DNA of 64,000 nt, taken from NCBI GenBank assembly GCA_902756345.1, contig CACVQR010000006.1:186001-250000 (forward strand), in the 5' to 3' direction. Below are positions 10,364 through 12,672 of the stretch, one piece after another. This stretch comes from Fibrobacter succinogenes. Its GTDB lineage: Bacteria > Fibrobacterota > Fibrobacteria > Fibrobacterales > Fibrobacteraceae. The translations under genes were made by a program, and so were the position numbers. The first letter of the stretch is position 1; the number at the start of each line of letters is the position of its first letter. The notes below the pieces were generated by a model. It made no database searches. It was given only the letters and a program-made list of their open reading frames with translations, and was not told the origin of the DNA.

Positions 10364-10544
10364 GTCTTCAAACAGCCCACGGCTCCAGAGACGAGCTCGT
10401 CTCGCTCACATGGATTCGGCCTTCGGCCTCTAATGTTCGCTCAACGACTCATCTTCTTCCGCCTTAGGGCTAACTGTCATGCTGCTAATTTGTCTTCCCC
10501 GCGAAGGCGGGGACCTCCTTTCCCATCTGAGAAAGAGTCATTAC

Positions 10545-10575
10545 CGCTTAGCGGCCAGGCATTCGCCGTCGCTTT
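10545..10575 (-). repeat. 31-bp repeat, inverted copy at 58695-58725
   Basis: The reverse complement of these 31 bases is identical to 58695-58725 (begins AAAGCGACGGCGAATGCC and ends GGCCGCTAAGCG). Similarity continues for about 15 more bases on one side (TTATGCCAAGAC versus TTATGTCCAAGAAG). Confidence 0.8.
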
Positions 10576-10720
10576 GTCTTGGCATAAAAAAGAGCAAGTC
10601 TTTGTCAAGATTCGCTCAGGTTGAAATCAGGTGGCGCTTATGCGGCTACTTATTGAATTTCCTGTTCCTTGTAGACATCTGGCCAGAAAAGGATATTTTT
10701 TGACATCAATTAAACTTCTT

Positions 10721-11809
10721 TCAATCCTTGATGCAACGAACGGAAAGACTCCAGGTTTTTCTAAATGCTTCGTAGCATAAATTTTCTGATGAATTTTTCA
10801 AATAACGAACATGTGCATATATCTTATTGTCTGCGTCTTCGGAGTTTGTCCAATAAAACATTTTATCGGACTCAGAAAATTGTCCGTTAGATCCTGTTTG
10901 GTACCCTCCATTTACTAAACTCGAGAAACCAAAAATATCATTAGCACCTTTTTTTAAACTTGTTCCAACCCCAATTCCACCATTATTTTGTTTTACATAA
11001 AATTTTAGATACGCAAAATCTGCTGTATCCGGTAGGTGCCATCCATCTGGGCATGCGCTTTGCGCAATTGACCAAGGATACATATGTCCTTTTGACTTAC
11101 AGTTTAATGAATCATTTGCCAAACAGTAACTACCCTTAGTATTCCAATTTAGATTTTGAGCCATCCAAACTTGTTCTCCAATTTGCACGGTTCTATACAC
11201 TTGAGAATCTCGCACATCCAAATATTCGCCATATTCAATATCAGGGTTAAGATATTTTGTTGTGACACACTTATATATTTCGCAATCGTAGAGTTTTGAA
11301 GGAATTCCTGCGGAACTACTCGATTTTTCGCTTGAAGAACTTTCCACAACCTTTTCGCTGCTGCTGGATTCTACAGGTTTCTCGGAACTGGAGGATACTT
11401 CGTTCTTTTCGGAACTTGAAGATTCCTCGACCTTTACGGAACTGGAGGATTCTGCAGCTTTCATCGAACTCGATGATTCATCCACCTTGGCAGAACTTGA
11501 AGAATCTTCAACCTTCACTGAGCTGCTACTTGACTTCGCGCTACTGCTGGACACACTTGTCTCGCTACTGCTCGACCCTTCGGCTTCGCTCAGGGTGACA
11601 TTCTGCGGTGTAACGCTGGACGAAGACTCGTCGCAATCTTCGCAAATGCTCGATGAAGAGCGGATTGCTTCGCTCGAGACGGGGGTGACATTTTGAATAG
11701 AACTGCTGGACCTTTCGAATTCGCTTGACGAGGATTCTTCGGCAACTCGCACTGGCGACTTGTCGCTCGAATCGTCGCCACAAGAAATGACCAGTGCCAT
11801 GCCGCACAC
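10721..11809 (-). CDS. FISUMP-domain lipoprotein with out-of-frame upstream start (poly-C tract)
   Basis: A surface lipoprotein with lipobox LVISC, a long Ser-rich linker (about residues 20-165, many SSSS blocks alternating with VEE/AKVDE-type spacers) and a C-terminal FISUMP domain: YGEYLDVRDSQVYRTVQIG, QVWMAQNLN, the W/P-rich CPDGWHLP, FYWTNSE and the terminal SLSVRCIKD. The open frame as sequenced begins at a GTG (11809) that leaves only nine residues before the lipobox Cys. The same frame extends upstream as VAFRRFLVASLAVCG, an excellent signal peptide, up to an 11-C tract. An ATG at 11871 lies just beyond the tract but is out of frame by one base, so one fewer C would restore a complete 34-residue signal sequence. 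Function of FISUMP proteins is unknown. Confidence 0.8.
   Translation of the reverse strand: MCGMALVISCGDDSSDKSPVRVAEESSSSEFERSSSSIQNVTPVSSEAIRSSSSICEDCDESSSSVTPQNVTLSEAEGSSSSETSVSSSSAKSSSSSVKVEDSSSSAKVDESSSSMKAAESSSSVKVEESSSSEKNEVSSSSEKPVESSSSEKVVESSSSEKSSSSAGIPSKLYDCEIYKCVTTKYLNPDIEYGEYLDVRDSQVYRTVQIGEQVWMAQNLNWNTKGSYCLANDSLNCKSKGHMYPWSIAQSACPDGWHLPDTADFAYLKFYVKQNNGGIGVGTSLKKGANDIFGFSSLVNGGYQTGSNGQFSESDKMFYWTNSEDADNKIYAHVRYLKNSSENLCYEAFRKTWSLSVRCIKD
11576..11595. repeat. Dispersed CCCTTCG..CTCAGGG hairpin element inside FISUMP linker
   Basis: CCCTTCGGCTTCGCTCAGGG. Read in the gene's direction it encodes LSEAEG within the Ser-rich linker, breaking the SSSS pattern. Same family as 6926-6944 and 63918-63936. 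Confidence 0.6.
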
Positions 11810-11847
11810 AGCAAGGCTCGCGACTAGAAAACGCCTAAAGGCTACAC

Positions 11848-11858
11848 GGGGGGGGGGG
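11848..11858. repeat. Homopolymer G11 (C11 in the gene), possible contingency tract
   Basis: Eleven consecutive G on the plus strand lie between the ATG at 11871 and the signal-peptide frame of the FISUMP lipoprotein. Ten C would put the ATG in frame; with eleven, translation stops after about 12 codons. Confidence 0.75.
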
Positions 11859-11888
11859 CAATAAATCTCATAAGCTTCTCTCTTTGCT

Positions 11889-12488
11889 TCAAATATGCAT
11901 AATTGTCTTAGCCCACTGAGGAATATCGTCGGTATATTTTTTTACCAGTTTCCCATCAGACATTCTGAACAAAAGCGAAGCGTCCTGGTCTTCAACCGAA
12001 TTGTCATAAACATAAAGACGATCCACCGATGGGATTATCTTCTTGCAGTTGAAAATTGATTTCTGGTATCTAGAAATAATCTTAGAAATCGGGACATCAT
12101 GACCGCCCTGTATCACTCGCTTTGCAATTCTAGCGGCATTGATAGATGGGTGTGAGGTCGCGACAAAAAACAAACGAATGAAATAACCTTGCTGTTTCGC
12201 ACGGCAAACAAAGTCGACTTTTTCGTCCGAAGAAAAAACGGACTCAAAAATAAGGCTTTGTCGGTTCTTCAAAGATTCTTCGCGCCAGGACTTGCAATAG
12301 CGGGCTGCATCAAGAACCGCTTCAGGGGAATTCCAGTCCCCAAAACGTTCCTGGGCGATATTGTCTGGGTTGATATAGACAGCGTTTTCCAACCATTCAT
12401 GTCTAAGAATCTTTGATGTAATGGTCGTTTTTCCCGAACCATTAGGGCCGGCAACAACAATAAGTACTGGGCGATGTTCTTCTGTCAT
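11889..12488 (-). CDS. Zeta-toxin-like P-loop kinase (COG4185 type)
   Basis: A 199-residue P-loop protein with Walker A AGPNGSGKTT at about residues 14-23, INPDNIAQ (conserved Asp), FESVFSS (conserved Glu), FVATSHPSINAARIAKRV and GGHDVPISKIISRYQKSI. The last block is typical of COG4185, which shares its fold with zeta toxins that phosphorylate UDP-sugars. The ATG at 12488 (MTEEHRPVLIVV) lies 10 nt after a 57-residue partner gene. The frame is open further upstream but would overlap that partner. By arrangement this is a candidate toxin-antitoxin pair with the small gene first. Kinase activity and toxicity are inferred, not shown. Confidence 0.78.
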   Translation of the reverse strand: MTEEHRPVLIVVAGPNGSGKTTITSKILRHEWLENAVYINPDNIAQERFGDWNSPEAVLDAARYCKSWREESLKNRQSLIFESVFSSDEKVDFVCRAKQQGYFIRLFFVATSHPSINAARIAKRVIQGGHDVPISKIISRYQKSIFNCKKIIPSVDRLYVYDNSVEDQDASLLFRMSDGKLVKKYTDDIPQWAKTIMHI

Positions 12489-12498
12489 GACACGCCTG

Positions 12499-12672
12499 TT
12501 AACGGATGGTTGCGGCAGCCTTTTCGATTTCATCGAAAAAACGTTTGGTGGCATCGGCGTTTGCCTTGCGAGCATCTTCGGCAGCTTCCCTCATGATTTG
12601 TGCAAGCATTTCATCGGTCGGCTCTTCCAAGTCCGTCAATCTGTAAGAATCAATGCTTTTTGTCGTTGTCAT
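12499..12672 (-). CDS. Small helical protein, putative antitoxin of the zeta-like kinase
   Basis: A 57-residue gene too short for the usual gene-length cut-off. It begins MTTTKSIDSYRLTDLEEPTD and ends FFDEIEKAAATIR, followed by TAA at 12499-12501. Apart from the first 15 residues it is strongly helical and charged (EMLAQIMREAAEDARKANAD). The upstream sequence AAGGAGCTCTTT (Shine-Dalgarno AAGGAG) supports the ATG at 12672. It ends 10 nt before the kinase ATG on the same strand, the usual order and spacing for an antitoxin-toxin pair. No sequence family is recognised; the role is inferred from position. Confidence 0.65.
   Translation of the reverse strand: MTTTKSIDSYRLTDLEEPTDEMLAQIMREAAEDARKANADATKRFFDEIEKAAATIR

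Follow-up and report, generated by a model that had tools for sequence, protein, structure and literature searches.

A candidate phase-variable FISUMP lipoprotein gene with a start-proximal poly-C tract in Fibrobacter succinogenes

We analyzed a FISUMP lipoprotein gene in a 64,000-nt stretch of Fibrobacter succinogenes DNA (hereafter the window) and compared it with its relatives across the genus. Judged from sequence, the gene is probably a phase-variable (contingency) locus that would switch by a slipped-strand mechanism and is predicted to be OFF in the assembled window genome. This was the central proposal of an earlier sequence-only reading, and it stands as the best-supported one: the gene has an open frame at nine C in one related genome, is out of frame at 11 C in the window genome and in another relative, and shows signs of purifying selection. 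The in-frame tract length of ten C that the same reading had given does not hold.

Tract, start codon and predicted lipoprotein

The poly-C tract, read directly from the sequence, comprises 11 C in the coding sense (G11 on the forward strand) and occupies positions 11848-11858 on the minus strand. An open frame follows at 10721-11847 (minus strand); it encodes VAFRRFLVASLAVCGMALVIS and a cysteine, then a Ser-rich linker, then a FISUMP domain, so that the run of 11 C and a FISUMP frame reaching upstream through a lipoprotein signal peptide are both as first described. The signal peptide (11780-11847, minus strand; judged by eye from the translation) has the form RVAFRRFLVASLAVCGMALVIS-C, with a charged n-region, a hydrophobic stretch and a lipobox LVIS-Cys whose cysteine codon lies at 11780-11782, and the ATG is in frame with it solely when the tract has 9 or 12 C. 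The translation continues with a repetitive Ser-rich linker (11222-11779, minus strand) and the FISUMP (Fib_succ_major) domain (10724-11221, minus strand). Membership of the domain in this family is supported by TIGR02145 (E=3.8e-40; 138 bits vs a curated cut-off of 41.65) and PF09603 (E=3.3e-18; 67 bits vs 33.9). Its structure, predicted from three window sequences, reached a pLDDT of 38, too low to be of use, and a 17-sequence FISUMP profile gave no match among solved structures. The lipobox suggests that the lipoprotein is located at the cell surface.

On the minus strand the tract is preceded by ATG AGA TTT ATT G and followed by GTGTAGCC. The ATG (11871-11869, minus strand) is situated 10 nt upstream of the C run, four codons before the tract, and at 11 C it is out of frame with the lipoprotein, which confirms the out-of-frame start noted earlier just beyond the run. 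Three nt further upstream is the purine-rich stretch AGAGAGAAG (11875-11883, minus strand), which by its sequence is a plausible, though weak, ribosome-binding site.

The length of the simple repeat within the coding sequence sets the reading frame, as in slipped-strand phase-variable genes. Using a script that varied the C run from 7 to 14 and scored ATG, GTG and TTG starts, we found that only 9 and 12 C bring the ATG into frame, since the number of C must be a multiple of three. At 7, 10 and 13 C the only in-frame start is a TTG immediately 5' of the tract, which has no ribosome-binding site at normal spacing; ten C therefore exposes this TTG alone and does not give the complete protein that had been expected. 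At 8, 11 and 14 C the open upstream stretch contains no in-frame ATG, GTG or TTG. Translation from the ATG at 11 C yields MRFIAPPPV and then a stop.

In the proposed mechanism, slipped-strand mispairing during replication would lengthen or shorten the C tract, which follows codon 4 and precedes the signal peptide. At 9 or 12 C, translation from the ATG would run through the signal peptide and the Ser-rich linker into the FISUMP domain, and the lipoprotein would be exported (ON). At 11 C, it would end at nine residues (OFF), and at 10 C the poorly placed TTG would be the sole possible start. Tract length would presumably change within clones fast enough to matter, and the ON protein would be displayed at the cell surface and bind something there.

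Alleles in related genomes and selection

The gene is present in 3 of 80 genomes of the genus, namely the window genome (G000), a sister species (G030) and a third genome (G010), which we compared as one genome per species. The proposed comparison of tract lengths among relatives gave 11, 9 and 11 C, respectively, with the flanks kept and the frame open in G030. The syntenic locus of the sister species shares 99% identity with the window over 816 nt, within which the two C's in the tract are the sole length difference; its nine C leave the frame open from the ATG. Further downstream, the Ser-rich linker differs by 27 nt between these two genomes. The third genome has the start region and the gene with 11 C, and its upstream DNA and gene are different. 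Because its homology to the window begins ~30 nt upstream of the ATG, it supports the ATG, which is kept in all three genomes, as the real start. A pattern search of the 80 genus genomes found TATGAGATTTATTGCCCCCC exactly conserved in these three only, and a search of wider genome contigs, where near genomes may be left out, yielded no further alleles. Two of the three known alleles are thus predicted to be OFF (window, G010) and one ON (G030), and under the proposed mechanism the window assembly would have captured the gene in its OFF phase and the G030 assembly in its ON phase.

For the 161 codons common to the three alleles, dN/dS was 0.15 between the window genome and G030, 0.12 between the window genome and G010 (both OFF) and 0.11 between G030 and G010, each value resting on 6-7 amino-acid changes. 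These ratios indicate purifying selection on the N-terminal half common to the alleles in every pair, the OFF/OFF pair included; the frame therefore appears to be selected despite its OFF alleles (0.11-0.15, few changes), which argues against simple pseudogenes.

The C-terminal FISUMP segment differs among all three genomes. BLASTN and alignment delimited a segment replaced in G010 at 10707-11145 (minus strand), with homologous DNA on either side, and a replaced stretch in G030 at about 10500-11324 (minus strand). By this sequence comparison, the three genomes have exchanged the segment. Given these replacements and the differing tracts, the lipoprotein varies in two ways, by tract length and by segment exchange.

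The neighbor directly before the lipoprotein gene, which lies outside the switch, encodes a zeta-toxin-like kinase (11889-12488, minus strand; PF06414, E=9e-16). A 57-aa ORF is located 10 nt upstream of the kinase gene, and the two, spanning 11889-12672 on the minus strand, are likely a toxin-antitoxin-like pair. The same pair is followed by different DNA in G031, G019 and G026.

Long C/G tracts in the genome and the genus

The chance expectation for such runs was estimated with a dinucleotide-level (first-order) model built on the window, and applied to the genome that contains it (3.36 Mb in 27 contigs). For C/G runs of at least 11 the model expects 0.019 in 64 kb and 0.98 in the whole genome, which has four. 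Runs of at least 10 show no excess (4 seen vs 3.98 expected), and runs of at least 8 are depleted (16 tracts vs 66 expected). Since the counts at 10 or more match chance and an excess appears only at 11 or more, the run alone is weak evidence, and the case rests on the orthologue comparison.

The window genome has 115 FISUMP domain matches, by which it would belong to Fibrobacter. Among them, this gene is the only one with a start-proximal coding run of at least 10, and the suggested search of other FISUMP genes for start-proximal G/C runs returned no second case in this genome. To say that the tract controls an abundant Fibrobacter surface family goes too far, as a single gene is involved, present in 3 of the 80 genomes. 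Three of the four tracts in the window genome lie near FISUMP genes. Of 41 tracts in the other genomes, 5 are no more than 500 nt from a FISUMP gene, compared with ~2.7 expected from our own rough baseline of 6.5% coverage (binomial P=0.13, not significant). A general association of long tracts with FISUMP genes is not supported.

Several individual tracts are associated with other FISUMP genes. In a second FISUMP lipoprotein, L218 (G061:C45, tract 1601-1610), the signal peptide contains an in-frame G10 run at a site where most relatives have a run of at most five G. A C11 tract of equal length lies 3 nt past a FISUMP gene stop, between convergent genes, in the window genome (L008, C26:4504) and in G083 (L123, C41). 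A G12 run, likewise equal in length, is located upstream of a FISUMP lipoprotein gene in the window genome (L003, C8:109775) and in G081 (L159), where it might tune transcription or translation.

Across the genus, C/G runs of at least 10 occur in 54 of the 61 genomes sampled, and most of the 115 distinct runs examined are intergenic. Internal runs were found in genes for Acyl_transf_3 proteins (L094 and L190 in frame, L104 out of frame), hexapeptide acetyltransferases (L107 in frame, L192 out of frame), a polysaccharide pyruvyl transferase (L250), a GH9 enzyme (L214) and two FISUMP proteins (L225 and L241); the homopolymers in L104, L192, L094, L107, L190 and L250 are 10-11 long. Some of the genus tracts thus lie inside surface-glycan and surface-protein genes, and the acyltransferases, hexapeptide acetyltransferases, pyruvyl transferase and FISUMP proteins among them are of kinds in which phase variation is typical. 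A C10 run breaks the frame of a UDP-glucose dehydrogenase gene (L202, G010:C5), which could reflect either an assembly error or phase variation of a capsule precursor gene. The longest run observed comprises 17 G (L199, G026:C14, near 1494).

Orthologous tracts with both flanks matched differ in length in 5 of 7 pairs, one of them with 13 vs 11 between identical flanks of 150+150 nt. The case of L217, which has a stop codon at the tract, was set aside. At one noncoding site the run is present in the window genome only; growth of a tract does not in itself imply adaptation and, as most genus tracts are intergenic, may be partly neutral.

Alternative readings and relation to known systems

These observations bear on the reading in which the homopolymer is polymorphic in length and has no adaptive switching, slippage having broken the gene in some lineages, where it now drifts, or switching being neutral. 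The OFF state of two of the three alleles would fit it, as would the abundance of long, mostly noncoding tracts in the genus and the noncoding tract that arose in the window genome alone. We nevertheless consider it unlikely, given purifying selection in the OFF/OFF pair, the zero stops in about 375 codons and the unchanged codon position of the tract across the three genomes. A base-calling or assembly error, with a true tract of 9 or 12 C and a gene that is simply ON, would draw on the error-prone nature of homopolymers this long; it appears distinctly improbable, as 11 C recur in the independent genome G010 and G030 was assembled with 9 C.

The remaining alternatives would have protein made from the 11 C allele itself. 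If RNA polymerase slipped or ribosomes shifted frame along the C run, a constant in-frame fraction would result, and homopolymers can be slippery for both RNA polymerase and ribosomes, with mainly poly-A/T discussed (PMC3711429). The allele of the sister species is, however, exactly in frame at 9 C and needs no recoding, and tract length is not conserved, which leaves this explanation a slightly smaller chance still. Translation from another start, whether an upstream non-standard codon or an internal GTG at 11809, is barely credible: the frame is indeed open upstream of the tract at 11 C, but that stretch lacks ATG, GTG and TTG, and the internal GTG would lose the charged n-region of the signal peptide.

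The proposed slipped-strand switch has close parallels. That C/G homopolymers switch surface genes is well established from earlier work (PMC8355987, PMC3711429, PMC2831843) and has been well described in Campylobacter (PMC8355987), and start-proximal homopolymers have been argued to be a general on/off device (PMC2831843). The window gene resembles the contingency genes of Campylobacter, Helicobacter and Neisseria in having a C/G homopolymer near the start of the coding sequence, a frame that shifts with its length and a surface-related target; unlike them, it belongs to another phylum and a non-pathogenic fibre degrader and is known here from sequence alone. Our search of the open literature, with most subscription journals outside it, found no report of phase variation in Fibrobacter. 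A report on Ornithobacterium hominis gives a putative phase variation mechanism for FISUMP/FSD genes (PMC13183296). That case shares the domain family, the large paralogous set and the proposed phase variation, and differs in that it concerns a member of the Flavobacteriaceae, whereas here a poly-C tract lies in the lipoprotein signal-peptide region. As FISUMP phase variation has already been suggested there, the window gene would be a further case of a known kind of switch, in a fibre-degrading gut commensal. Most Fibrobacter FISUMP proteins (TIGR02145) belong to the same domain family but have no start-proximal tract. A putative cellulose-binding or cohesin-like role has been listed for FISUMP (PMC4704652), and Fib_succ_major domains also occur as targets of diversity-generating retroelements (PMC4159848); the window gene is similar to these in that its lipoprotein ends in a diversified Fib_succ_major module, and here the variation is by tract length and segment exchange.

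More broadly, we can suggest only tentatively, at somewhat less than an even chance, that the genus, probably Fibrobacter, possesses a C/G-tract contingency repertoire that randomly switches surface polysaccharide modification and individual FISUMP lipoproteins and, together with C-terminal segment exchange, generates clonal surface heterogeneity (for phage escape or attachment to different substrates). If clones switch surface lipoproteins randomly, cultures would be mixtures and FISUMP proteomes would be clone-dependent; if the switching is true, annotation pipelines would miscall such genes as fragments. The large FISUMP family has no firmly assigned function, and a member that switches naturally and is ON in a sister species would offer a handle for testing it.
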